From Oribacterium sp. WCC10 (lineage in GTDB: Bacteria > Bacillota > Clostridia > Lachnospirales > Lachnospiraceae): 34,275 nucleotides of DNA. How positions within the stretch are numbered: the first letter of the stretch is position 1; each line of letters starts with the position of its first letter. The notes below the pieces were generated by a model that saw only the letters and a list, made by a program, of their open reading frames with translations, ran no database searches and was not told where the DNA came from. Below, one piece after another: positions 7,790 through 27,902 of the stretch. The position numbers were made by a program, and so were the translations under genes. The stretch lies in assembly GCF_900113415.1 (NCBI RefSeq), contig NZ_FOPH01000026.1:1-34275 (forward strand), read 5' to 3'.

Positions 7790-7831
7790 ATGAATAATAA
7801 AAAAGCCCCAAAAACAATGAAGGACTGTTAA
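7790..7831 (+). CDS. Possible 13-residue leader peptide
   Basis: ATG at 7790 opens MNNKKAPKTMKDC and stops at 7831, preceded by GCGAGG. It lies between the two permease genes, just before a hairpin with a T run. It could be a leader peptide, the remains of an older start of the downstream permease, or chance. No homology is recognised. Confidence 0.25.
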   Translation: MNNKKAPKTMKDC

Positions 7832-7844
7832 GGGATTCATACTC

Positions 7845-7866
7845 CTTATGAAATCATAAGTTTTTT
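7845..7866 (+). terminator. Small intra-operon hairpin with T run
   Basis: CTTATGAAATCATAAG (7845-7860) folds into a 6-7 bp stem with a 4-nt loop and is followed directly by TTTTTT. It sits 23 nt before the second permease start, so it would be a weak terminator or attenuator inside the operon. Confidence 0.5.
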
Positions 7867-7889
7867 ATAACGATAGAACGGAGCATTTA

Positions 7890-8801: not shown

Positions 8802-8810
8802 TTTGGGGTT

Positions 8811-8835
8811 GGAGAAACGCTGATTAAGTGTTTCC
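8811..8835. repeat. Family A repeat, single-hairpin copy
   Basis: GGAGAAACGCTGATTAAG followed by TGTTTCC repeats the left arm of the family A element (compare 2807-2832), with the right half absent. It lies in the 98-nt spacer between permease and ATPase genes. A GATGTAAGG word like the start of family B and C elements follows at about 8866. Confidence 0.6.
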
Positions 8836-8914
8836 ACGGTCAGACTGCGATGGAACCTGCAGTCTGATGTAAGGTATGGGAAACTAAACAGAAAAGTATA
8901 TGAAGGTAAGTATA

Positions 8915-9898: not shown

Positions 9899-10065
9899 CC
9901 CAAAAGTCGATATAGGATCACTTCTCACTTTGCACTGCCATGAAGTATTTTGTGAAGGCATACGTGGGATAAGACTTATGATACTTGGGTCATATTTGAC
10001 TTTTTAACTGCATTAATAATGAGCATGTGAAAATCTTATGACGCTGATGTACTACAGGAGAAAAC

Positions 10066-11061: not shown

Positions 11062-11087
11062 ACAGGTACAGGAAGATTGGAGATATT

Positions 11088-11157
11088 TTGAAAGTAAACT
11101 TTCAAAGTTTGATGGTGAGTCAGATACGGGTTTGGATGAATACAACTCGTGCCTGAC
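11088..11157 (+). promoter_or_regulatory. Palindrome and leader hairpin ahead of the aminopeptidase
   Basis: TTGAAAGTAAACTTTCAA (11088-11105) has perfect 8-bp arms. Fourteen bases later GTCAG/CTGAC plus ACG-GTT/AAC-CGT arms (11119-11157) make an interrupted hairpin that ends just before the GGGGG ribosome site. They could form an operator followed by an RNA leader, or an intra-operon processing site. Confidence 0.45.
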
Positions 11158-11171
11158 CAATGGGGGTAAAA

Positions 11172-12254: not shown

Positions 12255-12271
12255 ACCGTTGCCGCCGGAGG

Positions 12272-12310
12272 CTCTAAGGAAGTATTGAATTAATTATTTT
12301 TTCCTTAGAG
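12272..12310 (+). terminator. Hairpin after the aminopeptidase gene
   Basis: CTCTAAGGAA (12272-12281) and TTCCTTAGAG (12301-12310) are perfect 10-bp inverted arms around a 19-nt AT-rich loop. There is no T run after the stem, so termination is uncertain. The arm shares CTAAGGAA with the ends of family A repeats, so it may be a worn copy of one. Confidence 0.5.
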
Positions 12311-12335
12311 ATCATTAGTTACCAGGAACAAAGAA

Positions 12336-12424
12336 TGCTCACTTTTTATACTTTATGATGTAAAATATAAGAAAAGAGTCCTGCATTTGATTCAGGCAGG
12401 GTTCACTTGTGTCGTAAAGGTATA
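12336..12424. repeat. Family C repeat, copy 1
   Basis: About 80 bases starting at TTTATGATGTAAAATATA and containing the 20-mer TTCAGGCAGGGTTCACTTGT (12391-12410) recur at 15560-15640 upstream of the YitT gene. An internal inverted pair CCTGC/GCAGG (12380-12400) could form a hairpin. Both copies end ~20-25 nt before a strong AGGAGG site, so the repeat may serve as a shared promoter/leader. Confidence 0.65.
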
Positions 12425-12446
12425 GAATTTTCAAAAAGGAGGCATC

Positions 12447-13028
12447 GTGGTAATGAAAGGCAGTATAAAAATCAACCGTAAGCTGATTATTGTGGGCATA
12501 CTGCTCATTATATGTCTGACGACCGCATTGGTAATGACTATGAAAAAGACGGGAGGCATCGTGGGAGACGAAGCAGCTTTCCGAAGCAGACCCAAAACCA
12601 CACCGGCAGGTATGGTGGATCCAAATATAATCAATAAGGGAACAAATTCGTGGCAGGGTCAGAATTATATAAATACTGCCAAAAGCGCGCTTAATCTGGT
12701 TAACCAGCAAAGAGCCAACAACGGACTGGCCGCACTGGAGTGGGACGACAGCCTTGCTGCCTGTGCGATGATAAGGGCAACGGAACTTCCGTCGGCATTT
12801 TCACACTCAAGACCTAATGGCAGCGATTGGTACACCGTCTGCCCCGATATAATGTATGGTGAGAATCTCGCTCAGGGATTCAACTCTCCGGACGCCGCGG
12901 TCAATGCGTGGATGAACTCCACAATGCATCGCGAAAACATACTAAAAGCAGGTTTTGTATCGTGTGGAATAGGCATATATGAAAACGGCGGAAAGTGGTA
13001 TTGGGTACAGGAATTTGGATACTACTAA
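12447..13028 (+). CDS. Membrane-anchored CAP/SCP-domain protein (YkwD-like)
   Basis: A 193-aa protein with an N-terminal membrane segment (about residues 12-31, LIIVGILLIICLTTALVMTM) and a short linker. Its CAP domain runs from NTAKSALNLVNQQRANNGLAALEWDDSLAACAMIRA through FSHSRPNG, GENLAQG, NAWMNSTMHRENIL to the closing WVQEFGYY. The two histidines and acidic residues that line the CAP cavity are present. It should be exported and held at the cell surface. Bacterial CAP proteins are widespread and their exact job is unknown. AAGGAGG precedes both a GTG at 12447 (spacing 4) and an ATG at 12453 (spacing 10); either may be used. The 3' end overlaps the next gene. Confidence 0.9.
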   Translation: MVMKGSIKINRKLIIVGILLIICLTTALVMTMKKTGGIVGDEAAFRSRPKTTPAGMVDPNIINKGTNSWQGQNYINTAKSALNLVNQQRANNGLAALEWDDSLAACAMIRATELPSAFSHSRPNGSDWYTVCPDIMYGENLAQGFNSPDAAVNAWMNSTMHRENILKAGFVSCGIGIYENGGKWYWVQEFGYY

Positions 13029-15559: not shown

Positions 15560-15640
15560 CTTTTTTATGATGTAAGATATAGTAATGAACCCACCCCTTT
15601 GTTCAGGCAGGGTTCACTTGTATCCAAGAGGCATAGTTTT
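15560..15640. repeat. Family C repeat, copy 2
   Basis: This begins TTTATGATGTAAGATATAG and includes the shared TTCAGGCAGGGTTCACTTGT (15602-15621). Here GAACCC (about 15587-15592) can also pair with the GGGTTC in that shared segment. It ends just before the AAGGAGG site of the YitT gene, mirroring copy 1 ahead of the CAP gene. Confidence 0.65.
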
Positions 15641-15656
15641 TGAAGCAAGGAGGAAA

Positions 15657-16490
15657 ATGAAGAAACATAAAGATACATTGTCATATTTATTTATCATACT
15701 GGGGGCCATCATGGCCAGCTTTTCGGTTGCGCTGATTTTGCTGCCGAATGATGCTATAGATTACGGAACTGCCGGAGTTGGAATCATCATAAACAAGATT
15801 ACAGGATTCCAGTTATCCCTCTGTGTAATTGCAACTTTTATACCCTTTATCATAGCGGGGTATGTTTTTATAGGGAAAAGCTTCACTTTAAAGGCTCTGG
15901 TTGGTTCCGTAGTTTACACCCTTGGATTGGAGTTTTTTGAGGAGATTCCTTTTGAACTTAATACCGAGCATTTCCTGGCTGTAGCCTTCGGTGGAGCCAT
16001 TTTGGGAGCAGGACTTTCGCTGATTATCAGAAATGGTGGGTGCATAGACGGCTCTGAGATACTTGCCAATATCATAGTAAAAAAACTTTCTGATAAAACC
16101 GGACGAAACTACAGTATGACTCCGGTTCTTCTGGTGTTTAATGTCTGTGTTTATCTGGCTGTTTTTATATTGATAGATTCAACAGCGGCGCTGATGAGTC
16201 TTTTGGTTTATGTTGTTGCCACATCCGTCATTGACCACTTTACAGATCACTTCGAATCCATCAAGCAGGTTACTATCATCACGCAGGATCCTGATGGAAT
16301 AATACAGGATATCAAAGAAAGACTTAACAAAACCTGTACCATCATGGATTCCCGCGGAGCCATCGCAGGTAATAACAATACATTGATCTGCTATGTAAGC
16401 TACTTTGAACTTCCTGTGATGAAAGAGATCATATCAAGGCATTCCGGAAGCTTCAGTACAGTATCTACAATTGATGAAATTCTGAGATAA
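15657..16490 (+). CDS. YitT family membrane protein (DUF161 + DUF2179)
   Basis: A 277-aa protein. Five or so membrane helices fill residues ~8-190, with family patterns at SFSVALILLPNDAIDYGTAGVGIIINKITG and GGAILGAGLSLIIRNGGCIDGSEILANII. A soluble C-terminal DUF2179 domain follows (VTIITQDPDGIIQDIKERLNKTCTIMDSRGAIAGNNNTLICYVSYFELPVMKEII). The start at 15657 is chosen for AAGGAGG 5-6 nt upstream. YitT proteins are common multi-pass proteins of unknown transport or signalling role. The gene stands alone after a family C repeat. A ghost of its 3' end exists at 24761-24801. Confidence 0.92.
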   Translation: MKKHKDTLSYLFIILGAIMASFSVALILLPNDAIDYGTAGVGIIINKITGFQLSLCVIATFIPFIIAGYVFIGKSFTLKALVGSVVYTLGLEFFEEIPFELNTEHFLAVAFGGAILGAGLSLIIRNGGCIDGSEILANIIVKKLSDKTGRNYSMTPVLLVFNVCVYLAVFILIDSTAALMSLLVYVVATSVIDHFTDHFESIKQVTIITQDPDGIIQDIKERLNKTCTIMDSRGAIAGNNNTLICYVSYFELPVMKEIISRHSGSFSTVSTIDEILR

Positions 16491-16545
16491 GGTATGGAGA
16501 TAAGAATGCGGATTGGGTAATAATGATATTCATCATTTATCGCAA

Positions 16546-16622
16546 GACTTAACCGTATCTATAAATGCCTGAACCTGGGGAAGCTTGATATATTCCGGCC
16601 TGTATAGAATGAGAAATATCCG
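16546..16622 (-). pseudogene. Remnant: C-terminal tail of a LysR-type regulator
   Basis: On the minus strand this segment encodes ILYRPEYIKLPQVQAFIDTV then KSCDK. It is nearly identical to the C-terminus of the intact LysR gene at 27863-28711 (LLYRPEYIKLPQVQAFIETV then KSC). DNA identity runs about 70 bp (16546-16615 with 27871-27940). The frame continues a short way to the right but soon enters the choloylglycine-hydrolase fragment encoded on the opposite strand. It is only a scar, with no start or DNA-binding domain. Confidence 0.75.
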
Positions 16623-16628
16623 GTATCG

Positions 16629-17165
16629 ATGCTGCATTGGATCATAGGCGATGCCAAACGCAGCATTGTGGTCGAGTACACAAAAAATCACATGGAAGTC
16701 TATAAAAATGATGTTGATGTACTGGCTAATCAGCCGGGGTTCGAGTGGCATCGTGAGAATCTTCGTAACTACATGAATCTTGATAGCGATATGCCGGAAA
16801 AGGTTGTCTTGAAAGATGTGAAGATGACACCTTTCGGTTCTGGCTCCATGATGCGAGGGTTACCGGGAGATTACTATTCCACATCCAGATTTGTCAGGGC
16901 AGCATATCTGAATAACAATTATCCTGTAAAATCCAATGAGGATGAGAACGTTTCCAGAATGTTCCACACTCTGTCAGGTGTTGCCATGATAGACGGTGCA
17001 GCAGAAATGCATGATGGAATGTACGAGAAAACTATTTACACCGGAGGATTTTCTTCAGCTACAGATACCTATTACTTCAATACTTATGAAGACCCGGCAA
17101 TAAAAAGTGTTCACATGAAGGACTATGATTTGAATGGAAAAGAGTTATTTGTTGTCGGTGACTAA
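16629..17165 (+). pseudogene. Choloylglycine hydrolase family (linear amide hydrolase), N-terminally truncated
   Basis: The 178-aa frame matches the second half of the Ntn-type choloylglycine/penicillin V hydrolases: LHWIIGDAKRSIVVEYTKNH, VLANQPGFEWHRENLRNYMNL, FGSGSMMRGLPGDYYSTSRFVRAAYL and SSATDTYYFNTYEDPAIKSV. Intact members are ~320-350 aa and begin Met-Cys, the Cys being the nucleophile. Here roughly the first 150 residues with that Cys are missing, and the sequence starts directly beside a LysR tail remnant. No ribosome site precedes the ATG at 16629. It is therefore a dead fragment, although the reading frame is still open. Confidence 0.82.
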
Positions 17166-17200
17166 CAGGCAGAAGCGTTTTCAGCTATGATGCATAATAA

Positions 17201-17287
17201 AAAAAGAGGCTCAAGCTAGTGATAGATACCTTCTTTACCGGACAACCGGAAGAGAGAGTACATATCACTAGTGGAGGTTTCTTTTTA
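17201..17287 (+). terminator. Large hairpin after the hydrolase fragment
   Basis: CTAGTGATA (17216-17224) pairs with TATCACTAG (17263-17271), and the outer flanks AAAGAGG and GGTTTCTTTTT extend the stem. An inner CCGG-ACAA-CCGG stem (17238-17249) sits in the loop. The right side ends in TTTCTTTTTATT. This looks like a two-storey rho-independent terminator, 36 nt past the stop. Confidence 0.65.
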
Positions 17288-17378
17288 TTGTGCAAAAATA
17301 TTTACAATGCCACTCGATTTTGTTAAAAATAGAACGAAGTGTGATTCTTAGCAAAATTAAATAAATGAAGGAACGAAT

Positions 17379-18392
17379 ATGTCTTATAAAAAAAGAAGCG
17401 CCCATGGCAGTGATTCATCAAGACGATATATACATATAATCCGTATCATAGAAGTGCTGATGGTGGTGATGAGCTTTGTGTCGATCATGGTCTATTTCAG
17501 TGTGAAACCGGATTTTTCCGCCAGCCAGAAGGAAAATGCTCATCTCATCGGAGTCACTTATATGACTATGAACAACGAGTTTTACGGGATCGTGAACGAG
17601 CAGATAAATCACAGAGTTGAAGCGCAGGGCGACAACATAGTTTTGAGAGACCCGACGCTTAGTGTGGAACGACAGATATCTCAGATAGAAGAGATGCTTG
17701 ATATGGGTATAGATGCGCTGGTGGTAACTCCGGTTGATGCGTCTGCACTTACGGAAGTGATGAAAAAGGCAAAATCCCGGGGTGTAAAGATAGTGGTCGT
17801 GGACACGGAACTTGAAGATCCGGAGCTTGCAGATGTGACTATCAAGTCTGACAATTATAATGCTGGAAAAGCTATAGGACAGTACTACTGCTCCAAACAT
17901 CCGGAGGGCTCCAGAGTGGTTGTTATGACGCACGATGAAGCTATGTCCGGGCGCCAGCGGGTACAGGGTTTTCTTGATGCTGTCAGTCAAAACGAGAAAA
18001 CAAATCTTGTAGGGGAGATACCCTGTGAGGGACAGTATGAGATAGCACTTCCCGGACTTGAGGGATTTATACAGTCGGGCAAAGAATTTGATGTGGTGTT
18101 CTGCTTAAATGACTTTGCAGCGCTTGGTGCAGCAACAGCTCTTGAGAAGTACGGTATGCTTGATCAGGTCGAGTTATATGGTGTAGATGCATCCCCTGAT
18201 GCCAAAGCTCTCATCAATGAAGGCAGGATGCAGGCATCGGCGGCCCAGTTTCCGACACGTATCGGTACGGAGGCAGCAGACTCCCTGTATGCACTTCTTA
18301 ACGGAGAAACCGTCCCGGGTGAAGTTGTGGTTCCCGTTCAGGTGGTCACTAAAGCTAATGTTGCATCATTTACCATAGACAGGTGGCAGTAG
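17379..18392 (+). CDS. Membrane-anchored periplasmic-type sugar-binding sensor protein
   Basis: A 337-aa protein with one uncleaved N-terminal membrane segment (about residues 20-46, VLMVVMSFVSIMVYFSV). A complete ribose/galactose-type binding fold (Peripla_BP_4) follows: IGVTYMTMNNEFYGIVNEQI, QISQIEEMLDMGIDALVVTPVDASALTEVMKKAKSRGVKIVVVDTE, VMTHDEAMSGRQRVQGFLDA, FCLNDFAALGAATALEKYG, YGVDASPDAKALINEGRMQASAAQFP. No transporter genes of that ABC class are nearby. The gene is one base ahead of a histidine kinase gene, as in the XylFII-LytS sensors of clostridia, where the binding protein passes the sugar signal to the kinase. GAAGGAACG precedes the ATG. I infer a sensing role rather than transport. 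Confidence 0.88.
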   Translation: MSYKKRSAHGSDSSRRYIHIIRIIEVLMVVMSFVSIMVYFSVKPDFSASQKENAHLIGVTYMTMNNEFYGIVNEQINHRVEAQGDNIVLRDPTLSVERQISQIEEMLDMGIDALVVTPVDASALTEVMKKAKSRGVKIVVVDTELEDPELADVTIKSDNYNAGKAIGQYYCSKHPEGSRVVVMTHDEAMSGRQRVQGFLDAVSQNEKTNLVGEIPCEGQYEIALPGLEGFIQSGKEFDVVFCLNDFAALGAATALEKYGMLDQVELYGVDASPDAKALINEGRMQASAAQFPTRIGTEAADSLYALLNGETVPGEVVVPVQVVTKANVASFTIDRWQ

Positions 18393-18393
18393 G

Positions 18394-19743
18394 ATGGAAG
18401 AAATATTAAATCAGAATCGGGATGGGATCAAGAGGGTATCTGCTCAGCTTTTTTCTTTGATGCAGCTGTTCAATTGTCTCATGATAATGTTTATCACTAT
18501 GGTAACGGCGCATGCCATGCACGGGTTTATACTGGAGGGCAATGCATTTGACCTTATCACAAAGTGCCATGCAACCATAGTTTACTGGAAGATTCCGGTT
18601 ATCGCCGGGATTCTGTACATAAGCCTGCTTTCACTGCTGTCCATAGAGTGTAACAATCATATAGAACTCATAGTGAAGCTGTGGCTTGAGATCGCAGTCA
18701 GTGCCGGACTGTTCTACTGTACAGGGCTGTCCTATACGGTAATGGTACTTCTGATACTGGCGGATATAGTCAGAAACAGGATAGACTGGAGTAAAAAGAT
18801 CCTTTATATCGTACTGCTTTCATGTGTGGATCTGGTACTTAACGGCAATGTTCTTTCAGGGTATGCCAATCCGGTTTCTGTAAACCAGATATGGACCTAC
18901 TACCGGCCAGATGTCGCTTCTGTTTTCTCCGGTGCCATCAACATCATGTTCCTTATAGATGTGTTTATCTTCATTCTCTACATGGTGTTCCTCATACTGG
19001 AACAGATGAGTGAGAAGGAGAGGATCGCGGCGCTTTACAGAGAGCTTTCAATCGCAAATCACAAGCTTGCGGAGGCAAACAAGCAGCTGGAGGAGTATAC
19101 TGAGGAGCTGGTAAGTGCTGCGGAGACCAGAGAGAGGAACCGTTTTGCACAGGAGATACATGATACCCTGGGGCATGCCCTCACAGGAATCGTCACAGGT
19201 ATAGAAGCCTGCATCATGCTTATGGATATTGCGCCGGATGCCACCAAGGAGCAGCTCAAGGCCATCGAGGAGGTTGCGAGACAGGGCATCACAGATGTTA
19301 GACAATCGGTGAAAGCATTGAGACCTGATGCACTGGAGAGACTAAAGCTTGAGGATGCGCTTCTCAAGATAATCGATGAAACCATGAGGTCTACAGGTAT
19401 TACCATCAATTACAACTGTACCACGTCACTCCTTAATTTAAGTCAGGATGAGGAGGATGCCATATACAGAATCGTGCAGGAGAGTGTGACCAATGCTATC
19501 CGCCATGGTAAGGCTGATGTCATAGACATTGGCATCGAAAGAGAAGACGGACTTCTGAAGATAAAGATTAAGGATAACGGAATCGGATGCGGAAAAGTGT
19601 ATAAAGGCTTCGGTCTCCACCATATGCAGGAGAGGCTCAGTCTCCTGAAAGGAACGCTTAGCTATGACGGTTCTGATGGCTTTACGATCGATGCCTCAAT
19701 TCCCATAAGATGGGGCAACAGTGCAGAAGAAAAAGAGGATTAA
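18394..19743 (+). CDS. Sensor histidine kinase (HisKA_3 family)
   Basis: A 449-aa protein. About six membrane helices span residues ~20-205, a predicted coiled coil lies at ~205-245, and a NarL-type kinase core follows. The dimerisation/phospho-acceptor motif is RFAQEIHDTLGHALTGI with His256, the N-box is IVQESVTNAIRHGKA, and the ATP-binding G motifs are DNGIGCG and GFGLHHMQERLSLLKG. The extracytoplasmic loops are short, so the kinase probably needs the anchored binding protein encoded just upstream (1-nt gap) to sense its ligand. It should phosphorylate the response regulator encoded 6 nt downstream. Confidence 0.93.
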   Translation: MEEILNQNRDGIKRVSAQLFSLMQLFNCLMIMFITMVTAHAMHGFILEGNAFDLITKCHATIVYWKIPVIAGILYISLLSLLSIECNNHIELIVKLWLEIAVSAGLFYCTGLSYTVMVLLILADIVRNRIDWSKKILYIVLLSCVDLVLNGNVLSGYANPVSVNQIWTYYRPDVASVFSGAINIMFLIDVFIFILYMVFLILEQMSEKERIAALYRELSIANHKLAEANKQLEEYTEELVSAAETRERNRFAQEIHDTLGHALTGIVTGIEACIMLMDIAPDATKEQLKAIEEVARQGITDVRQSVKALRPDALERLKLEDALLKIIDETMRSTGITINYNCTTSLLNLSQDEEDAIYRIVQESVTNAIRHGKADVIDIGIEREDGLLKIKIKDNGIGCGKVYKGFGLHHMQERLSLLKGTLSYDGSDGFTIDASIPIRWGNSAEEKED

Positions 19744-19749
19744 AGTAAA

Positions 19750-20424
19750 ATGATTAAGATTTTGATTGCTGATGATCAGGAGCTTTTGAGACAGAGTCTC
19801 ATGATCATACTGAAGAATACACCGGATTTTCAGGTTACGGATGCTGTCTCTGACGGCAGGGAAGTCATCCGTTCGGTCAGAAACGAAAAGCCGGACATCA
19901 TCCTCATGGATATCAGAATGCCGGGTATGGACGGAGTGGTGTGTACACAGATCATCAAAGAACAGTATCCTGAGATAAAAATCATCATCCTTACAACCTT
20001 TGATGATGACAAATATGTGTTTGATGCGCTTAAGTACGGGGCAAGCGGCTACCTCCTTAAAGGTATCTCGGTAACGGAGCTTTCGGATGCCATAAGAAAG
20101 GTTTACAACGGTACAGCTATAATCAACGAAGCGGTGACTTCCAAGGTGGTGAATCTTTTTTCTCAGATGGCCAAATCAAACATTGCCAATGAAGTTGACG
20201 ACGATATGGTGAAGGACCTCCGGGAGAATGAATGGAAAGTCGTAGTGCTTGTGGGCAGAGGACTCTCCAATAAGGAAATCGCGGCAAAGCTTGATCTCTC
20301 TGAGGGTACGGTTAGGAACACACTCAGTACTGTGCTCAGTAAGCTGAACCTAAGGGACAGAACCCAGCTCGCCATATGGGCGGTTCAGACCGGTACGGTC
20401 AATAAATATATAGACAACTTGTGA
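19750..20424 (+). CDS. NarL/LuxR-type response regulator
   Basis: A 224-aa protein. The receiver domain has acidic pair D8/D9, phospho-acceptor D54 (LMDIRMPGMDG), a Thr in IILTTFDDD and Lys in YLLKG. The C-terminal LuxR-type helix-turn-helix has VVVLVGRGLSNKEIAAKLDLSEGTVRNTLSTVLSKL. The glutamate often seen in the REREV motif of this domain is replaced (NEWKVVVLV). It is the output partner of the kinase upstream and overlaps or abuts the next gene at its TGA. The most likely target is the PTS operon, whose upstream region holds a 9-bp perfect inverted repeat at 21836-21866. Confidence 0.93.
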   Translation: MIKILIADDQELLRQSLMIILKNTPDFQVTDAVSDGREVIRSVRNEKPDIILMDIRMPGMDGVVCTQIIKEQYPEIKIIILTTFDDDKYVFDALKYGASGYLLKGISVTELSDAIRKVYNGTAIINEAVTSKVVNLFSQMAKSNIANEVDDDMVKDLRENEWKVVVLVGRGLSNKEIAAKLDLSEGTVRNTLSTVLSKLNLRDRTQLAIWAVQTGTVNKYIDNL

Positions 20425-20429
20425 GGACT

Positions 20430-21743
20430 ATGGTGAAAAGAAGATACAGATTACTACTAAGCGCTGTGCTGGTATTTTTGGCCGTACTTGTCGTATATGG
20501 CTTTCTTCCTCTAAGTTCCGGAAGTCAGAATGTGCTCACAGTTGGAGCCTTTGCGGGAAGTTACTGGAGTCTGCAGAATGGTAATTCCTACAAGATACTT
20601 GATGATGCCATCGATCTTTTCGAAAAGGAAAATCCGGGAGTCAGAGTTCAATATGTGAGCGGAATCACGAGAGACCAGTATCAGGAGTGGCTTTCCGGGA
20701 AGAAGGCAGAGGGGAAGATGCCGGATGTTTTTCTGGTTCCCTCAGATAGTTTCCAAAGCTTTGCGGAAATAGGTGCGATGCAGAGCCTTGATGGTTTCAT
20801 AAAGCATGACAATGATTTTTCCGAGGATGTGTTTTATGAAAAGGCTCTTCAGAGTGGACGATACAGAAATATGCTGTACGCACTTCCGTATGAATGTTCA
20901 CCCGTAATTATGGTCATGAACAGGACATTGCTTCAGGACAACGGCATTCCGGAACCTCGGAAGGACTGGACCTGGAATGAGTTTTATGAGGCCTGCAGGA
21001 TGACAGGTGTGTCTGAAGGAGAGGCTTCCGGGCAGTATGGGGTCATAGATTACAGCTGGAAGGATGCCTTTGCAGCAAACCGGGTAAAGCTTTTCAATGA
21101 CAAGGGTACAGCCTGTGACTTTACAGGAGATAACATAAATGAGGCATTGATACTTTTGGAGCAGCTGTCAAAGCTTCCGAAAGGCAAGGTGATCTCCGCC
21201 GGTGATTTCTATAAGGGAGTGGTTGCCTTCGAGCCGATGTCCTTTGCAACATACAGGGCGAGGGTCCAGAATGACCTGAGCTATCAGAACTACTCGGATT
21301 TTGAGTGGGGCTATACATCCATGCCGGCAGGTACTGCAGGTGACAATGTTTCGCGACTGGACACACTCACTGTTGCCATGTCATCTGATTCACACAGTAA
21401 AAGGGATGCCTGGAGGTTCATAAAGACCCTTACAGCGACTGAGGCCATACAAAAAGAGATATATGACTATTCAGAGGGGCTGTCACCCCTTAAGTCAGTT
21501 ACGGAAGATCCTGCGATGGAAGAGTATGTGCTGGACCGTTACGGAGTGGTTCTGGACAGAGATGTGATTACTTATGTCATGGAAAGAGCGGAAAATGAAA
21601 ACCGCTTTCCCGATTATGAGGAGCTGGAGACTGAGGTGACCACTGCGGTGGACTCGATTCTTGAGGATAAGTCCAATATCCGTATGGAACAGATCATATG
21701 GAACCGAAGGATCAACAATTACATAAAGAAATTGAGCTATTAA
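20430..21743 (+). CDS. Second membrane-anchored extracellular solute-binding protein
   Basis: A protein of about 437 aa with a basic start (MVKRRYR), a hydrophobic segment (LLLSAVLVFLAVLVVYGFLPL) and no lipobox cysteine. A family 1 (maltose-type) binding fold follows: LTVGAFAGSYWSLQNGNSYKILDDAIDLFEKENPGVRVQYVSG, MPDVFLVPSDSFQSFAEIGAMQSLDGFI, MLYALPYECSPVIMVMNRTLLQDNGIPEPRKDWTWNEFYEACR, TVAMSSDSHSKRDAWRFIKTLT. It is the last gene of the sensor cluster, starting at the response-regulator stop (a GTG at 20421 overlaps it as GTGA; the ATG at 20430 follows TGAGG). No permease or ATPase genes accompany it. It is either an accessory sensor or a sugar-capturing protein for the PTS region. Confidence 0.87.
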   Translation: MVKRRYRLLLSAVLVFLAVLVVYGFLPLSSGSQNVLTVGAFAGSYWSLQNGNSYKILDDAIDLFEKENPGVRVQYVSGITRDQYQEWLSGKKAEGKMPDVFLVPSDSFQSFAEIGAMQSLDGFIKHDNDFSEDVFYEKALQSGRYRNMLYALPYECSPVIMVMNRTLLQDNGIPEPRKDWTWNEFYEACRMTGVSEGEASGQYGVIDYSWKDAFAANRVKLFNDKGTACDFTGDNINEALILLEQLSKLPKGKVISAGDFYKGVVAFEPMSFATYRARVQNDLSYQNYSDFEWGYTSMPAGTAGDNVSRLDTLTVAMSSDSHSKRDAWRFIKTLTATEAIQKEIYDYSEGLSPLKSVTEDPAMEEYVLDRYGVVLDRDVITYVMERAENENRFPDYEELETEVTTAVDSILEDKSNIRMEQIIWNRRINNYIKKLSY

Positions 21744-21755
21744 ATATTAAGGTTA

Positions 21756-21793
21756 AAGAGTTCTCTGCACTTGCTGCGGAGAACTCTTTTTTT
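21756..21793 (+). terminator. Terminator of the sensor operon
   Basis: AGAGTTCTC (21758-21766) pairs with GGAGAACTCT (21778-21787), with GC/GC near the loop, and is followed by eight T. It cleanly separates the sensor genes from the PTS genes, so the PTS has its own promoter. Confidence 0.9.
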
Positions 21794-21835
21794 ACAAATG
21801 ACAAATGTCATGTCCTTTGGAGTACAAATTACTTG

Positions 21836-21866
21836 TTAAATCAGTGACGCATGTTACCTGATTTAA
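21836..21866. promoter_or_regulatory. Inverted-repeat operator candidate upstream of the PTS operon
   Basis: TTAAATCAG (21836-21844) and CTGATTTAA (21858-21866) are perfect 9-bp inverted arms separated by 13 bases. A possible -10, TATAGT, lies at about 21881-21886 with no good -35, as expected for an activator-dependent promoter. The first PTS start is at 22021, giving a ~135-nt leader. The response regulator encoded upstream is the natural candidate to bind here. Confidence 0.55.
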
Positions 21867-22020
21867 TGTTTTGAAATCGTTATAGTATCTGTGTGATCAG
21901 ACAGAACGTGGCTCCGGTTTACGGGCCGGGCAGCTGATGATTTGAAGTAACTGTTGTAAGTAACTTAAGCTCTTACAGAAAGTGTGTAATGGGCTGGGTT
22001 CTCAAAGGGGAGGTATATGT

Positions 22021-22449
22021 ATGAAATATGTTGTACTGGTCAGTCACGGTGAATTTGCTCCGGGGCTGAGGAGTGCGGCCTGCATGCTTGCCGGAGAAGA
22101 CAGGGAAGATCTTCTGGCAACAAGTCTTAAGGACGGCATGGGTGCAGATGAGTTTTGCGGGAACGTTAGAGAGATGCTCAAGGTAGTAAAGGAAGAAGAT
22201 GAGATCATACTTTTTGGTGATCTGATCGGCGGTTCACCACTTACCAATGCAGCCAATGTTATCTCTGAGCTGGGGCTTCTCGGAAGGACGAGAATGTTTG
22301 GAGGAATGAATCTTCCGCTGGTTATCACAACGGTGATAGGCAAAGATGATGCAGAAACTGATGAAGTTCTGGCCGATGCTTTGGAGGGTGCAAGAGATCA
22401 ATTGCACGAGTTCAGGATTGAAGCAGAGGATGAGGAAGAAGAACTTTAA
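22021..22449 (+). CDS. PTS mannose/fructose/sorbose family IIA component
   Basis: A 142-aa EIIA-Man domain. The phospho-accepting histidine is His9 in VVLVSHGEFAPGL, and the DLIGGSPLTNAANVI stretch is the conserved loop next to the active site. The tail is very acidic (EAEDEEEEL). It accepts phosphate from HPr and passes it to IIB. The start is placed at 22021 because GGGGAGG lies ~7 nt upstream; an in-frame ATG at 21982 has no site. It is the first gene of the four-gene PTS. Confidence 0.93.
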   Translation: MKYVVLVSHGEFAPGLRSAACMLAGEDREDLLATSLKDGMGADEFCGNVREMLKVVKEEDEIILFGDLIGGSPLTNAANVISELGLLGRTRMFGGMNLPLVITTVIGKDDAETDEVLADALEGARDQLHEFRIEAEDEEEEL

Positions 22450-22526
22450 ATTATATGAGCCGGTTGGATCTGCAGCTCTATGGCAGAGATAAACGGCAAA
22501 AACATGCCTTTATAGAGGAGGAAGAT

Positions 22527-23024
22527 ATGGCAGTAACATTTTTACGAATTGATGACAGAATGATCCACGGACAGACGGTGACAAGATGGGCACTTGAGTA
22601 CCCTTGTGACGGACTCATCGCAGTTAATGATGCAGCGGCAGCAAGTCCTGTTTTGAAGGCTGCTTATAAGAGTGCTTCTGACAAGAAGACATTTGTATGG
22701 GGTGTAGATGAGTTCATCGCTAAGAGCAAGAAGGTAATCGAGTCCGATACACGTTACTTCGTTATCACAAAAAATCCGATCGATATGAAGAAGATACTTG
22801 TTGATGCAGGATTTGTACCGGGGGATGTTAAAACCGTTATCGTTGGACCATGCAACGACAGACCGGGAGCCGTTAAACTGGGCAACAACCAGTCCATCAC
22901 GCAGGAAGAGGCACAGGCTCTTGAAGATATCAGAAACACAGGCTATGAAGTAGAGTTCTCACTTCTCAAAGAAACATCTATCGGTAACTGGAACAAGTTC
23001 AGAGGTCAGTTTGGCTTTAACTAA
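22527..23024 (+). CDS. PTS mannose/fructose/sorbose family IIB component
   Basis: A 165-aa IIB-Man/Sor protein with the phosphorylation site His14 in RIDDRMIHGQTVTRW and the family pattern VGPCNDRPGAVKLGNNQSITQEEAQAL. It takes phosphate from IIA and gives it to the sugar while IIC/IID carry it across. The ATG at 22527 follows GAGGAGG by 5-6 nt. It is a separate polypeptide rather than fused to IIA as in E. coli ManX. Confidence 0.93.
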   Translation: MAVTFLRIDDRMIHGQTVTRWALEYPCDGLIAVNDAAAASPVLKAAYKSASDKKTFVWGVDEFIAKSKKVIESDTRYFVITKNPIDMKKILVDAGFVPGDVKTVIVGPCNDRPGAVKLGNNQSITQEEAQALEDIRNTGYEVEFSLLKETSIGNWNKFRGQFGFN

Positions 23025-23047
23025 TTGATAAACTAAGGAGATTAATC

Positions 23048-23905
23048 ATGAACATAAGTATTATTCAGGCTATAATTCTCGGTTTGTTTGCATCTCTTTC
23101 AAGTATGCCGGGACTTGGCGGAACATCTATCGGTAACTACACACTGGGACGTCCTCTGGTTGGCGGACTTATATGCGGTATCGTTTTAGGAGATATCCCG
23201 ACCGGTATTCTGGTGGGATGCGCGATGCAGGTTGTTTATATCGCACTTGTAACACCGGGCGGAACAGTTTCCGCAGACGTTCGTGCCGTATCTTATATCG
23301 GTATTCCTCTTGCCATGCTTGCCTTAAAGAGCTACGGACTTGCTGCTGATTCGGCAGAAGGAATCGCTCTTGCAACCTCCTTCGGAACCATGGTAGGTAC
23401 TATCGGAACTGTTCTTTTCTACGGGACTGCAACTATGAACCTCATCTGGCAGCACATGGGCTGGAAGTGGGTTGACAATAGAGAGTATCATAAGCTTTAT
23501 CTTGTAGACATGGTTCTTCCATGGATCTCACATATCACATTTTCACTTATCCCTACAGTAGTTATGTGTCTCCTCGGTGAGCCTGTTGTTAATCTCATCA
23601 AGACATCACTTCCCATGGATGGAATCCCGATGAAGACACTCTTCACGGTTGGTGCACTCCTTCCCTGCGTCGGAATCGCAATCCTTTTAAAGCAGATCGT
23701 CAGATCGGTAATTGATTTCGTACCATATCTTTTCGGATTTACACTGGCAGCTTCTATGGGTCTTAATCTTGTAAGTGCAACAGTTGTTGCGGCAATGTTT
23801 GCAATTGTTATCTACAACCTTAAGATGCTTCAGCTCAAGAAGGCAGCGCCTGCAGCAGCCAATGCTTCAAACAATAACTGGGATGATGACGAGGAGGACA
23901 TTTAA
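23048..23905 (+). CDS. PTS mannose/fructose/sorbose family IIC component
   Basis: A 285-aa hydrophobic membrane channel subunit. It has MPGLGGTSIGNYTLGRPLVGGLICGIVLGD and GCAMQVVYIALVTPGGTVSADVRAVSYIGIPLAML near the N-end, typical of EIIC-Man/Sor. The C-terminal tail is cytoplasmic, first A/K-rich then acidic (NNNWDDDEEDI). AAGGAG precedes the ATG. Its 3' end contains the GAGGAGG ribosome site of the IID gene, one base from its stop, so the two are translationally linked. Confidence 0.94.
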   Translation: MNISIIQAIILGLFASLSSMPGLGGTSIGNYTLGRPLVGGLICGIVLGDIPTGILVGCAMQVVYIALVTPGGTVSADVRAVSYIGIPLAMLALKSYGLAADSAEGIALATSFGTMVGTIGTVLFYGTATMNLIWQHMGWKWVDNREYHKLYLVDMVLPWISHITFSLIPTVVMCLLGEPVVNLIKTSLPMDGIPMKTLFTVGALLPCVGIAILLKQIVRSVIDFVPYLFGFTLAASMGLNLVSATVVAAMFAIVIYNLKMLQLKKAAPAAANASNNNWDDDEEDI

Positions 23906-23906
23906 A

Positions 23907-24743
23907 ATGGCTGAGAAGAAAATATCGAAGAAGACATTATCAAAAGCTTTTCATAACTGGTATTACGGTAACCTGACATGCTTCTCTCAGGAGCACATGC
24001 AGACCTTTGGCTATCTCTGCTCCATGCTTCCTATAGTAGATGAGCTTTATGATGACGAAGACAAGAAGGCTGAGGCAATGGATACATACCGTGCTTTCTT
24101 TAATACAGAGCCTCAGCTCGGTGCAATCATAGTCGGTGTGACAGCCGGACTTGAGGAGGCAAGAGCCAATGGAAATAAAGAGGTAGACTCAGAGACTATC
24201 AACGGTCTCCGTGCAGGTCTCATGGGACCTATCGCCGGTATCGGTGATTCACTTGTAGTAGGAACTGTGATCCCGATCCTTCTCGGTATCGCCATGGGTA
24301 TGTCAGGCGGCGGCTCTCCGATGGGTGCTATATTCTACATGCTGGTTTGGAACCTGTTCGCTTACTTCGGAATGAAGTTCATCTATAACAAGGGTTATCA
24401 GATGGGTACAAAAGCTGTTGAGTTCCTTGTAGGCGATATAGGAATGGCTATCCGTGAGGCAGTCACAACACTCGGCGGTATAGTAATAGGTGCGGTAAGT
24501 GCCACATGGGTCAGTGTAAAGACCAGCTTCCATCTCGTAAATGCAAGCGGTGAGGCTTACATGGTTCTCCAGGAGAAACTCGATGGAGTATTCCCGGGAG
24601 TGCTTACAGCTATCGTAGTAATCTTCTGCTGGTGGCTCATGGCCAAGAAGCAGTTCAGCCCTATCAAGGTTATGCTTCTCCTTGTGGTTATCGCCTTCGC
24701 AGGTGTAGTACTTGGATTCTTCAATCCGGGTCTTTCATATTAA
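23907..24743 (+). CDS. PTS mannose/fructose/sorbose family IID component
   Basis: A 278-aa partner of IIC. Diagnostic segments are FHNWYYGNLTCFSQEHMQTFGYLCSMLPIVDELY, FFNTEPQLGAIIVGVTAGLEE, INGLRAGLMGPIAGIGDSLVVGTVIPILLGIAMGM and the C-terminal membrane helices. IID occurs only in the mannose family of PTS. The start at 23907 follows GAGGAGG with a 7-nt gap. Together with IIA, IIB and IIC it makes a full permease for a hexose or amino sugar; the exact sugar cannot be read from the sequence. Confidence 0.94.
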   Translation: MAEKKISKKTLSKAFHNWYYGNLTCFSQEHMQTFGYLCSMLPIVDELYDDEDKKAEAMDTYRAFFNTEPQLGAIIVGVTAGLEEARANGNKEVDSETINGLRAGLMGPIAGIGDSLVVGTVIPILLGIAMGMSGGGSPMGAIFYMLVWNLFAYFGMKFIYNKGYQMGTKAVEFLVGDIGMAIREAVTTLGGIVIGAVSATWVSVKTSFHLVNASGEAYMVLQEKLDGVFPGVLTAIVVIFCWWLMAKKQFSPIKVMLLLVVIAFAGVVLGFFNPGLSY

Positions 24744-24760
24744 GACTGAATGGTGAGTTA

Positions 24761-24801
24761 CCAAGAGGCAGTTTCTACAATTGATGAAATACTGAGATAA
24801 G
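24761..24801 (+). pseudogene. Ghost of a YitT gene (3' end only)
   Basis: About 33 bases ending TCTACAATTGATGAAATACT then GAGATAAG repeat the last 10 codons and stop of the YitT gene (compare 16465-16497) with one or two changes. The word CCAAGAGGCA immediately before (24761-24770) also occurs ahead of the YitT start (15623-15632). This suggests a second YitT locus that lost its whole interior. Confidence 0.6.
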
Positions 24802-24914
24802 TTAAAATATAGTTACATTACTTCACCATTAGTAATTGAAAAACCACAGCTTTGGCACTGGAAAAGTCAAAAAAACCTCTCGCTTTCAAATAAATAGTTG
24901 AATAGTATACGAAA

Positions 24915-24956
24915 GAATCCGGGACTTCATTATATTGAAGTACCGGGTTCTTTTTT
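24915..24956 (+). terminator. Terminator downstream of the PTS operon
   Basis: GAATCCGGGACTTCA (24915-24929) pairs with TGAAGTACCGGGTTC (24936-24950) around a ~6-nt loop, and is followed by six T. One or two mismatches lie in the stem. It is the first terminator after the IID gene, ~170 nt past its stop. Confidence 0.85.
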
Positions 24957-25091
24957 CATACAAAAAAATGAGATTGGTTAAAGTAGATATTGGATCAATT
25001 CATGCAATGTGCCCATTGTGAACATCAGACCACTTAAGCGCGCTTCGCGAGGGCTAACGCTTATTTTTTATATGAATAATTAACCAAAAGA

Positions 25092-25171
25092 ATAATTGCA
25101 ACATTGTCGCAAAAAGCATTGACAGAGTAAACATGCACGATTATTATAAACTGCGACTGTGTTGCAATTAT
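25092..25171 (+). promoter_or_regulatory. Metal-cluster promoter flanked by two palindromic operators
   Basis: The -35 TTGACA (25119-25124), 17-nt spacer and -10 TATTAT (25142-25147) form a near-consensus sigma-A promoter. A palindrome TTGCAACATTGTCGCAA (25096-25112) lies just upstream and CTGCGACTGTGTTGCAA (25151-25167) covers the expected start point. Each has the form TGCRACA-N-TGTYGCA, allowing one mismatch. The two sites are also inverted copies of each other (ATAATTGCAACA against TGTTGCAATTAT). Inference: the Fur-family regulator encoded at 27456 represses here. Confidence 0.7.
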
Positions 25172-25181
25172 CAGAAGAGAG

Positions 25182-26120
25182 GTGATACATATCGAAACCG
25201 AAGTTTTTATATTTTCAGGTTTTCTGGGCAGTGGAAAAACCACAGCGCTTCAGGAAAGCATTATCAAAAACAGCAATGTTAATTCCGGTAAAACCATCAT
25301 CATATGTACTGAAGAGGGTGAAGAAGAATACAGAACAGATGAATTAATTAAGCTGAATATTGATCAGATTTTCTTAGAGAACGAATCGGATCTTACAGTG
25401 GAGTTTCTTTCCGGGATTTCAGATAAGTACAAGCCCGAGAGAGTTTTCGTGGAGTTCAATGGTATGTGGAGTCTAAAGACCTTTCTCGAGATGGATTTAC
25501 CTGAAAACTGGTATGTTGCCAATGTTTTCAGCTTCGTTGATGCAGGTACATATGAGCTTTACCTGAAAAATATGCGACAGACAATAATGGAACCCTTGAA
25601 AGAATCGGATGTGATTCTGTTTAACAGATGTGGAGAAGATTTCAAAAAGGGAAATGTGAGAAGATCCATAATGCTTCTAAACAGCAGAGCTGCGATTTAC
25701 TTTTCCGGACTTGATGGAAAAATTGCTGACGGGAAAGATGAACTGCTTATAGATGATACAGATAACAGTATCAACATTACTGATGATTTATTCTGTTCAT
25801 GGTTTGTGGATTGCCTGGAAAATCCAGATAAGTACTATGGGAAAAAGGTTCATTTAAGTGGCGTAGTAACGAAAGGAAAGGATCTCGATGATAATCAGTT
25901 TTATGTGGGAAGGTATGCCGCCATCTGCTGTGCTGCAGATGCGCAGTTTGTCGGTTTCATTGCTGAATATGAAGGTGAAGTTCCAACTGAAGGTGACTGG
26001 ATAGAAGTGGACGCGCAGATTGAAAAGGGGCTTATAGATGGAAGGTATCAGATTATTCTTTTGAAAATAGCCGAGCTTAAAACTGTCAAAGCACCTGAAG
26101 ATATATTTTTGTATTACTGA
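25182..26120 (+). CDS. CobW-type GTPase fused to a YcgQ-like (TIGR03943/DUF1980) domain
   Basis: A 312-aa protein. The N-terminal P-loop GTPase of the CobW/COG0523 class has Walker A GFLGSGKTT at about residues 13-21, but the CxCC metal motif that follows it in true metallochaperones is absent. A short loop with NRCGED replaces the usual NKxD. Residues ~205-312 (CLENPDKYYGKKVHLSGVV, YVGRYAAICCAADAQFVGFIAEYEG, DWIEVDAQIEKG) resemble the C-terminal domain of YcgQ, including the CCxAD signature. Known: in Bacillus ycgQ and the CobW gene yciC belong to the zinc (Zur) regulon. Inference: a zinc-stress protein combining both parts. The only in-frame start is GTG at 25182 with a weak AGAAGAG site. 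It lies immediately after the double operator. Confidence 0.82.
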   Translation: MIHIETEVFIFSGFLGSGKTTALQESIIKNSNVNSGKTIIICTEEGEEEYRTDELIKLNIDQIFLENESDLTVEFLSGISDKYKPERVFVEFNGMWSLKTFLEMDLPENWYVANVFSFVDAGTYELYLKNMRQTIMEPLKESDVILFNRCGEDFKKGNVRRSIMLLNSRAAIYFSGLDGKIADGKDELLIDDTDNSINITDDLFCSWFVDCLENPDKYYGKKVHLSGVVTKGKDLDDNQFYVGRYAAICCAADAQFVGFIAEYEGEVPTEGDWIEVDAQIEKGLIDGRYQIILLKIAELKTVKAPEDIFLYY

Positions 26121-26179
26121 TTGAGTCAGTCTTCCCTAAAACTGACATTTAAAGCCGGTTCTTGTCAGGAAGATTTAAA

Positions 26180-26211
26180 CTAAGGAAACACTGATTAAAT
26201 CAGCGTTTCCC
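26180..26211. repeat. Family A repeat, single-hairpin copy
   Basis: CTAAGGAAACACTGATTAAA then TCAGCGTTTCCC is a compact hairpin joining a right-end arm (CTAAGGAAACACTGAT) to a left-end arm (GCGTTTCCC) of family A. It sits in the 127-nt gap between the two CobW genes. Confidence 0.7.
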
Positions 26212-26247
26212 AAAGCCGATGTTTTTATTGAAAAAAGGAGAATCATA

Positions 26248-27351
26248 ATGTCAAAGAAAGAATTACCTGTAGTTATCATTACCGGGTATCTCGGATCGGG
26301 AAAGACAACCCTTATGCAGAATATACTCAAACAGGAGAAACGTAAGATAGCCCTCATAGTTAATGATATGGGCAGTATAAACATAGATGCATCCATTCTG
26401 AATAAAACAGGAAATCAGGTTTCCCAGATTGAAATGGTGGAGATGCAGAACGGTTGTATATGCTGTACGCTTCGGGATGAATTTATGGCTGAAATTGAAA
26501 GACTGTCTGCTGACAGAAGTATCGAAGCTATATTTGTTGAAGCATCAGGAATAAGCGAACCTTCATCCATAGCCGGTGCTTTTGTGAACTATGAGGAAAC
26601 AACAGAAGATACGAGAGTTTACCTGAAATCAGTGGTTTCTGTTGTTGATGTTGACAGAATATATCGTGAATTTTTGCACAGCCTTGATCCTTCTGAGGAT
26701 ACAGAGGATGGAGACATCATCAATCTTATAATGGATCAGATAGAGTTCTGTAATCTGATGATACTAAACAAAACAGATCTGCTAAGCGAAGATCAGCTTG
26801 ATGAAGTAACGTCCGGTCTTCGTAATATTCAGCGGGAAGCTGAAATGCTCACTTGTACTCATGGAGAAGTTGACCTTGATATCTTGCTTGACCGTCCGGA
26901 TTTTGACTATGATGAAGTAGAGTCGTACAGTACGGTGCAGAAAACTTTAAATGCCCACGATGAAGATAAAGCATGTGTGGATGAATATGGCATAACATCT
27001 TTTGTGTTTGAAGAAAAAAGGCCTTTTAACAGAGAAAAATTCAACAGACTGGTTGAAGAGTACCCGGAAAAACTGATACGATCAAAGGGATATATATGGT
27101 TTTCCGATGATTGGGAGCATGTGCAGCTTTTTGAGCAGGCCGGAAGAAATGCGTCCATAACTGAGCTCACACCATGGGTATCTGCATGGCCGGAGGAAGA
27201 GCTTGCTCCTGTAATAGAGGACTTTCCGGATATAAAGGAAGATTGGGATGAGACATATGGCGACAGATGTAATCAGGTGGTTTTCATCGGAAAAGGATAT
27301 GAGAAATGTGAAATTGAGCGGTTACTGTACGAGTGTATAGAAAGTGCTTGA
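26248..27351 (+). CDS. CobW/COG0523 GTPase, zinc metallochaperone-like (YciC type)
   Basis: A 367-aa protein with Walker A GYLGSGKTT (residues 13-21), the metal-binding GCICC motif (Cys70, Cys72, Cys73 in MQNGCICCTLRDE), a switch region IFVEASGISEPSSI and the guanine-specificity NKTD. The C-terminal CobW_C domain runs from ITSFVFEEKRPFNREKFNRLVEEYPEKLIRSKGYIWFSDDWEHVQLF. Members of this class use GTP to deliver zinc (YciC, ZigA) or cobalt/nickel to target proteins. AAGGAG precedes the ATG. It lies between another CobW-type gene and a Fur-family regulator, so zinc limitation is the most likely setting. Confidence 0.93.
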   Translation: MSKKELPVVIITGYLGSGKTTLMQNILKQEKRKIALIVNDMGSINIDASILNKTGNQVSQIEMVEMQNGCICCTLRDEFMAEIERLSADRSIEAIFVEASGISEPSSIAGAFVNYEETTEDTRVYLKSVVSVVDVDRIYREFLHSLDPSEDTEDGDIINLIMDQIEFCNLMILNKTDLLSEDQLDEVTSGLRNIQREAEMLTCTHGEVDLDILLDRPDFDYDEVESYSTVQKTLNAHDEDKACVDEYGITSFVFEEKRPFNREKFNRLVEEYPEKLIRSKGYIWFSDDWEHVQLFEQAGRNASITELTPWVSAWPEEELAPVIEDFPDIKEDWDETYGDRCNQVVFIGKGYEKCEIERLLYECIESA

Positions 27352-27398
27352 ATTCAAAGTAAACTATCATAATAAATGAATTTTTAATCTTGGCAGGT

Positions 27399-27450
27399 GG
27401 CGGGATGCGGCTTAGGATAATACCTGACCCGTTCCGCCTCCTTTCGGAGG
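27399..27450 (+). promoter_or_regulatory. Structured leader with sequestered ribosome site, Fur-family gene
   Basis: A long hairpin pairs GGCGGGA (27399-27405) with TTCCGCC (27432-27438), CGG (27408-27410) with CCG (27429-27431) and TTAGG (27412-27416) with CCTGA (27423-27427), loop ATAATA. Directly after it CCTCC (27437-27441) can pair with GGAGG (27446-27450), the ribosome site of the regulator gene. The two stems share two bases (27437-27438), so they may stack or compete. Confidence 0.5.
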
Positions 27451-27455
27451 AACGA

Positions 27456-27902
27456 ATGAAAATCGGTTACAAAACAAAACCAAGAACTGAAATCATGGAA
27501 TATCTCAAAGAAAATGCAGACAGGCGTTTCACTGCAAGAGATATACTGAATGCGCTGAAATCAGATGGTGACGGCCTTGACAGATCCACAGTTTACCGTA
27601 ATCTTGAGCGTCTGTGCAAAGACGGTAAGCTTGTAAAATACAAGGAAAGTGATGTAAATGCAACATGTTACCAGTATTCTGAAAATCATGGTTCCTGTCG
27701 CGAGCATGTACATGCGGAGTGTACAGGCTGCGGAAAGATATTCCATCTTGACAACATTATTTTTTCGGATGCTGCTAGTAAGATGAAGAAAAACTACGGT
27801 ATAGAAATTGATTACGGAAAGACCGTAATCATGTGCCTGTGCAATGAGTGCAGAGTGAACCCTCAGCAAGACTTAACCGTTTCAATAAATGCCTGCACCT
27901 GA
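27456..27902 (+). CDS. Fur-family metal-responsive repressor (Zur-like)
   Basis: A 148-aa protein. The winged helix (RTEIMEYLKENADRRFTARDILNALK...LDRSTVYRNLERLCKDGKLVKYK) is followed by the metal/dimer domain, with HVHAECTGCGKIFHLDN (His84, His86, Cys89, Cys92) and a second CxxC, CNEC (Cys129, Cys132), making the structural zinc site of Fur proteins. The start at 27456 is chosen for GGAGG 5 nt upstream; the frame is open further up without a site. Placement behind two CobW genes argues for Zur rather than Fur or PerR. The last ~13 residues (PQQDLTVSINACT) are read from the antisense strand of the LysR gene end, with which it overlaps by 40 nt tail to tail. Confidence 0.9.
   Translation: MKIGYKTKPRTEIMEYLKENADRRFTARDILNALKSDGDGLDRSTVYRNLERLCKDGKLVKYKESDVNATCYQYSENHGSCREHVHAECTGCGKIFHLDNIIFSDAASKMKKNYGIEIDYGKTVIMCLCNECRVNPQQDLTVSINACT

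Follow-up and report, generated by a model that had tools for sequence, protein, structure and literature searches.

A four-gene cassette in Oribacterium sp. WCC10 probably encodes a portable sugar sensor in which two membrane-anchored binding proteins and one histidine kinase control a nearby importer. The cassette lies in a stretch of 34,275 nucleotides (contig NZ_FOPH01000026.1, positions 1 to 34,275; hereafter the window) and comprises genes for a ribose-type binding protein (SBP4), the kinase, a NarL-type response regulator, and a maltose-type binding protein (SBP1), followed by the four genes of a mannose-family phosphotransferase system (PTS; Table 1). We put the probability of this reading at roughly 0.72, drawing on evidence read from sequence: gene order, co-occurrence of kinase and SBP1, retained phospho-acceptor residues, hydrophobic N-termini on both binding proteins, and a common operator. 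In the proposed mechanism, SBP4 and SBP1, membrane-anchored on the outside, would both report to a kinase lacking an outside sensing domain of its own; sugar-bound SBP4 and SBP1 would influence the dimeric kinase through its membrane part, and the kinase would in turn phosphorylate the regulator at D54; the regulator would bind ATGACA-N2-TGTCAT sites, which at some loci stand in tandem ~21–23 bp apart. This would activate the nearby importer, a mannose-family PTS here and an RbsABC-type ATP-binding cassette (ABC) importer or a fructose PTS elsewhere, with SBP1 adding another input signal, perhaps from an oligosaccharide or a further sugar. We infer from the comparisons below that both binding proteins contact the kinase, that the regulator occupies the site, that it activates rather than represses, and what the ligand may be.

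Gene order, which the original prediction had marked out for comparison among relatives, is conserved in many bacteria of gut and rumen. Loci were collected as neighborhoods of matches to an SBP1 profile, and 80 loci of named genomes, the top-ranked among 260 candidates of a further scan, were added; all were picked via SBP1, and the other three genes are therefore the test. Removal of one locus (L109; L numbers are loci, G numbers genomes) and of eight duplicates among the 80 named loci left 111. SBP4, kinase, regulator, and SBP1 are complete and in this order at 96/111 of these SBP1-chosen loci, and the arrangement is not due to chance. Eleven of the 15 incomplete loci are broken by a contig end, the other four being L090, L138, L144, and L179. 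SBP1 stands immediately 3′ of the called regulator at 108/111 loci; in the three exceptions no regulator is called (L144), a small open reading frame intervenes (L157), or the contig begins at SBP1 (L177). The predicted phospho-acceptors H256 of the kinase and D54 of the regulator are kept in 96/96 cassettes, each of which has two binding-protein genes of different Pfam families. At 96/111 loci, the sensing binding protein thus shares a cassette with kinase and regulator, its gene being distinct from that of the transport binding protein; ABC loci such as L038–L040 contain a separate transport paralogue of SBP4 (SBP4t), with L090 as an exception. Record titles of cassette loci include Lachnospiraceae, Butyrivibrio, Enterococcus pseudoavium, Selenomonas, Thermoclostridium, Herbinix, and Longibaculum.

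Kinase and SBP1 also share their distribution among genomes. Matches to the SBP1 profile occur in 25/397 genomes of the family and 3/17 of the genus, and across the phylum in 11/398 (window genome counted, G733 included); the family and phylum searches, like that with the kinase profile below, scored at most four candidates per genome, and second copies may escape them. We set G733 aside (156 bits), as its locus L109 pairs an SBP1-like protein with permeases resembling MalF and MalG, and neither kinase nor regulator was matched there. The kinase profile and the SBP1 profile find the same 25 of the 397 family genomes, at 26 places each, with scores of at least 466 and at least 493 bits, respectively. 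At the thresholds used, the kinase was not found without SBP1 in this sample, nor the reverse; the sole extra kinase match (G064) is weak, at 161 bits, and covers the C-terminal half alone. A plasmid search with SBP1 gave no match.

A predicted operator recurs before the importers adjacent to these cassettes. In the first loci, a palindrome search over 64 upstream regions returned TGACA-N2-TGTCA as clearly best, present in 15 of them. Its 14-base extension, ATGACA-N2-TGTCAT, matches at 11/12 or better in 34 places in the first loci (3.8 expected from shuffles) and at 12/12 in 14 places (0.0 expected). Sites of at least 11/12 precede 28/35 adjacent transporter operons in the discovery loci vs. 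4/211 other genes, and 44/63 vs. 4/302 in 72 further loci; at 10/12 or better, the further loci give 58/63 vs. 15/302. An earlier count with other counting windows gave 27/38 transporter operons vs. 5/224. Each gene was called from the earliest start codon following a stop, and three loci with a transporter (L040, L094, and L198) fall outside the operon count because the called gene begins too near its neighbor; in the genome of L040 (G021), a strict-pattern site lies at the true start region. Sites mostly lie ~50–220 bp 5′ of the first gene of the importer. Among 67 secondary sites, 45 lie 20–25 bp and 16 lie 41–48 bp from the main site, spacings that suit regulator dimers bound along the same side of the helix.

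The window itself has such a site where the original prediction would place one, upstream of the PTS: the sole perfect copy in its 3.64 Mb genome is at 21798–21811, 209 bp before the IIA start. Possible partner sites at 21821 and 21844 score poorly. The site also precedes PTS operons at a distance from the cassette. Cassette locus L104 of G464 shows no transporter, and both strict-pattern sites of that genome precede mannose-family PTS operons, one ~19 kb from the cassette on the same contig and one on another contig; its relative G703 also has two strict-pattern sites, both before PTS operons; the first of these operons belongs to the cassette locus, the second to a different contig. We rejected autoregulation as a rule (cassette promoters reach 11/12 or better in only 2/30 discovery and 2/41 further loci). 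Nor do we claim a wider regulon, with 17 one-mismatch copies in the window genome vs. 13 for a reversed control pattern; the two such copies that were read (L123 and L125) lie within called reading frames. Separately, the single strict-pattern site of G122 (L245) precedes a different kinase–regulator pair, not the transporters of that genome's cassettes.

Partner transporters vary among loci. A mannose-family PTS adjoins the cassette at 54 of the 111 loci, an RbsABC-type ABC importer at 39, a fructose PTS (fruK-fruA) at 2, and both PTS types at 2, and most partner ABC importers bear the same operator as the PTS operons. The original prediction of a sensor operon controlling a PTS rather than an ABC importer is supported with a qualification: the predicted site does precede the PTS of the window, but since the partner varies, the system is not PTS-specific. 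At least six switches between mannose PTS and ABC importer are required on a tree of the 96 complete cassettes (a quick tree with three long rows, two of them joining each other). That the cassette is a transporter-agnostic two-ligand sensor (for instance, of a ketohexose and another sugar), in which a single kinase lacking an outside domain integrates two anchored binding proteins of unrelated fold, rewired between PTS and ABC at least six times by carrying one operator along, is a tentative proposal to which we give a little less than an even chance. In the Oribacterium relative G014, which has two cassettes, a PTS accompanies the first (L036) and an ABC importer the second (L037). Of the mannose-PTS loci, 32/54 carry a HAD-family phosphatase resembling the one at L091, vs. 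0/39 ABC loci. At L089, the ABC permease is followed by another regulator-like gene, which shares 69% identity with a cassette regulator.

The SBP4 ligand is most likely a ketohexose, with fructose as the best single guess; this suggestion rests on fruK-fruA linkage, contact positions, and neighboring isomerase, phosphatase, kinase, and aldolase genes taken together. N13, D89, R141, N190, D215, and Q235, which we take to be ribose-contact positions of the Escherichia coli ribose-binding protein (RBP), are kept in 75/75 aligned cassette SBP4 sequences. The positions of RBP F164 and R90 carry Gly in 66 and Thr in 52 of the 75, respectively, so the SBP4 pocket should be different, and probably wider. 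Four cassettes (L099, at 9757–12651, L134, L141, and L142) adjoin fruK-fruA, and a site of at least 11/12 precedes fruK in all four. The same architecture with another sugar as ligand, such as D-mannose, D-lyxose, D-tagatose, or D-psicose, is compatible with the sensor reading, and here we consider the odds even: fruK-fruA linkage is limited to 4/111 loci, and a D-lyxose isomerase, which would fit D-lyxose or D-mannose just as well, is found at 12/39 ABC loci, some ABC loci also having genes for a class II aldolase and a PfkB kinase, against which stands the operator before every linked fruK. A MalE-fold protein, 5CI5, is listed as a D-tagatose binder (PMC7676653). It is among the matches of SBP1, so SBP1 too could bind a monosaccharide.

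Both binding proteins have N-termini that fit the membrane anchors originally proposed, as judged by a simple hydrophobicity and lipobox rule: each has an N-terminal hydrophobic segment without a lipobox, compatible with uncleaved anchors on the two proteins of the window. Such a segment is present in 106/111 SBP1 and 81/96 cassette SBP4 sequences. Transport paralogues of SBP4 mostly have a lipobox (23/27) and provide an internal control for the differing anchors of the sensors. The SBP1 model (predicted local distance difference test, pLDDT, 88.5) shows an N-terminal helix at residues 2–28 followed by a MalE-type fold; its nearest structure by E-value is Lmo0181, and by TM-score, among the matches listed, an unliganded glucan-binding protein (0.74). 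SBP1 of the window has other residues at 281–290 (window 21261–21290) in place of a loop that is otherwise strongly conserved (consensus YK-YP---KK) and is a possible contact surface.

SBP1 might instead be a structural or accessory subunit, such as a clamp or inhibitor of the kinase, with no ligand for signaling, leaving SBP4 alone to sense. We regard this as unlikely, though it has points in its favor: SBP4 is the paralogue of a transport binding protein and retains the sugar-contact positions, and between the window and L036 SBP1 has diverged more than any other cassette protein (82% identity vs. 87, 89, and 96% for the other three). Yet it is SBP1 that occurs in the same genomes as the kinase, while SBP4 has moved to the transporter operon in L090, and SBP1 retains its whole MalE-type fold, with aromatic residues at many positions that hardly vary among 96 sequences.

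The kinase model also departs from the known sensor plan. At pLDDT 89.9, it has six apparent membrane helices (one of 14 residues), the last of which continues into the catalytic coiled coil, and no outside domain; outside loops of any length are found only at residues 48–65 and 151–171 (about 18 and 21 residues). The model therefore suggests a kinase without an ectodomain able to dock a binding protein. Its catalytic half best matches DesK, and no structural relative of the membrane half appears among the best 50 fold matches listed. These features bear on the view that the cassette is an ordinary three-component sensor, of the XylFII-LytS or CuaDSR kind, with a chance extra, unrelated binding-protein gene at its end. 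The published plan, as outlined in PMC10384115, is indeed one binding protein with a kinase and a regulator. We nonetheless find a chance addition improbable, given the near-constant place of SBP1 directly after the regulator, the failure to find the kinase without SBP1 in the 397-genome sample, and a modeled kinase that, unlike CuaS, has no outside domain.

Several observations weigh against the sensor reading as a whole. Cassette loci are related to each other and are not independent samples, and 14/111 have no recognised transporter beside the cassette. In the window, the cassette lacks an operator of its own, the best match being 7/12; the transporter operons of L090 and L102 likewise score 7/12, and those of L157, L169, and L130 and the second ABC operon of L189 score 7–9/12. 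SBP4 of L090 sits in the transporter operon, and 15/96 cassette SBP4 sequences have a lipobox. Strict-pattern sites in G122 and G210 precede other genes, and none occurs in the genome of G176, where a fragment of the cassette is present. A looser pattern occurs in 7/14 cassette-less genus mates, one of which (G006) has a perfect ATGACAAATGTCAT; five such sites were read, and all lie within called reading frames, two of them near a called start. Finally, a promoter consensus scan of the PTS leader (21744–22017) found no promoter-like match, and promoter-consensus counts in the region equal those of shuffles.

A hairpin with U residues follows SBP1 (stem 21755–21789, −21.9 kcal/mol, z −5.4, then UUUU), so that the most likely reading is one transcript for the cassette and another for the PTS; the terminator at 21755–21793 was missing from the output of a separate consensus scan. 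Separate transcripts, an operator–regulator pairing that is a prediction, and the perfect site within a reading frame of a cassette-less mate would all suit the idea that the operator belongs to another regulator and that cassette and PTS are mere neighbors, but we consider this very improbable, as the site recurs before operons of all three importer kinds (PTS, ABC, and fructose PTS) beside the cassette and before PTS operons away from it in G464 and G703, and its perfect form occurs once only in the window genome.

Table 1. Features of the sensor cassette and adjoining PTS in the window (forward-strand coordinates)
Feature	Position	Strand	Basis
SBP4, ribose-type (RbsB-fold, Peripla_BP_4) binding protein, 337 aa, N-terminal membrane segment	17379..18392	+	Pfam
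SBP4 peak-hydrophobicity N-terminal segment, aa 26–42, no lipobox	17454..17504	+	Hydrophobicity/lipobox rule
Histidine kinase, HisKA_3 class, 449 aa, predicted phospho-acceptor H256	18394..19743	+	Pfam HisKA_3 and HATPase_c, model
NarL-type response regulator, 224 aa, predicted phospho-acceptor D54, GerE helix-turn-helix	19750..20424	+	Pfam Response_reg and GerE
SBP1, maltose-type (MalE-fold, SBP_bac_1) binding protein, 440 aa, N-terminal membrane segment	20421..21743	+	Pfam, model
Intrinsic terminator ending the cassette transcript	21755..21793	+	Folding energy
Predicted response-regulator operator ATGACAAATGTCAT	21798..21811	+	Motif comparison across loci
PTS EIIA, mannose family, 142 aa, ATG 22021	22021..22449	+	Pfam EIIA-man (scanned from 22018)
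PTS EIIB, sorbose/mannose family, 165 aa, ATG 22527	22527..23024	+	Pfam PTSIIB_sorb
PTS EIIC, mannose family, 285 aa	23048..23905	+	Pfam EII-Sor
PTS EIID, mannose family, 278 aa, ATG 23907	23907..24743	+	Pfam EIID-AGA (scanned from 23904)

The layout of the window is as first described, with all eight genes on the forward strand and the cassette tightly packed: after gaps of 1 and 6 nt, a start of SBP1 at GTG 20421 would overlap the regulator by 4 nt, whereas a start at ATG 20430 would leave a gap of 5 nt. Kinase and regulator satisfy the HisKA_3/NarL two-component domain set (Pfam matches above cut-offs). The full IIA-IIB-IIC-IID PTS reported to follow the cassette is likewise present, its subunits side by side and all above Pfam cut-offs; all score below the cut-offs of the matched NCBIfam mannose, sorbose, and galactosamine models, and the substrate is therefore not named by family. 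In keeping with the statement that neither binding protein has transporter genes of its own, no ABC permease or ATPase was found among the open reading frames scanned in 15585–27902; the ABC genes found farther off, at 4777–9898, among the reading frames of the window that were scanned are oligopeptide-type. The original prediction is supported overall, with control of the PTS, uncleaved anchors, and signaling through both binding proteins as its predicted, sequence-derived parts.

Some further features of the window lie beside these genes. The gap between IIA and IIB holds a ~60-bp element (22464–22522) with five other copies in the genome, 79–84% identical and some partial; in the relative locus L036, this gap is 16 nt and lacks the element. 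Upstream, at 16629–17165, a choloylglycine-hydrolase-family gene of 178 aa matches the second half of the family only; the relative locus L035 has a 329-aa version, and the window copy looks broken. Downstream, at 25182–27902, two CobW-type GTPase genes, one with a fused DUF1980 C-terminal domain, are followed by a Fur-family regulator, and together they look like a metal-supply cluster.

If the sensor reading is true, binding-protein sensing is not confined to ABC importers, and the same sensor can serve a PTS. The operator would then offer a handle for finding targets in many gut and rumen Bacillota. A question of signaling also arises, namely how a kinase of membrane helices and two short loops would read two anchored proteins of different fold, and the cassette, its operator, and the natural swaps between PTS and ABC importers make that question testable.

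Binding-protein-dependent two-component systems for sugars are already established. In XylFII-LytS of Clostridium beijerinckii, a xylose-type (CUT2) binding protein and a kinase switch on a sugar importer; that system has a LytS-type kinase with a periplasmic domain, an AraC-type regulator, one binding protein, and an ABC importer, unlike the cassette described here with its HisKA_3 kinase, NarL regulator, second binding protein of MalE type, and PTS. AraPST of Geobacillus stearothermophilus likewise uses a separate sensing binding protein with a two-component pair and an ABC importer, with one sensing binding protein against two binding-protein genes in our cassette. DesK-DesR, like the cassette pair, combines a multi-helix membrane sensor having a HisKA_3 core with a NarL-type partner, but DesK responds to the state of the membrane without binding proteins.

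A close likeness is to CuaDSR of Ruminiclostridium cellulolyticum, in which CuaD, the sensing protein, works with a kinase that has an extracellular domain (PMC10384115). Its discussion names four such systems in control of transporter genes, for chitin, for citrate, and, in C. beijerinckii and G. stearothermophilus, for the import of carbohydrates; no PTS is mentioned (PMC10384115). CuaDSR, as presented in that source, shares with our cassette a sensing-only binding protein encoded with kinase and regulator and a nearby importer with its own transport binding protein. It differs in having one sensing binding protein and an ABC importer, whereas the cassette has two of different folds and PTS or ABC outputs, and in the extracellular domain of its kinase, of which the cassette kinase model has none. 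We recognised no account of the four-gene cassette in the open-access literature, as covered mostly by titles and abstract openings. Three-component sugar sensors such as XylFII-LytS, CuaDSR, and AraPST pair a docking kinase ectodomain with a single sensing protein, and the cassette departs from them on both counts, by its kinase model and by its gene content. Set against these established systems, the cassette differs in its second binding protein of another fold, its HisKA_3/NarL pair, a kinase modeled without an ectodomain, and a PTS among the outputs.

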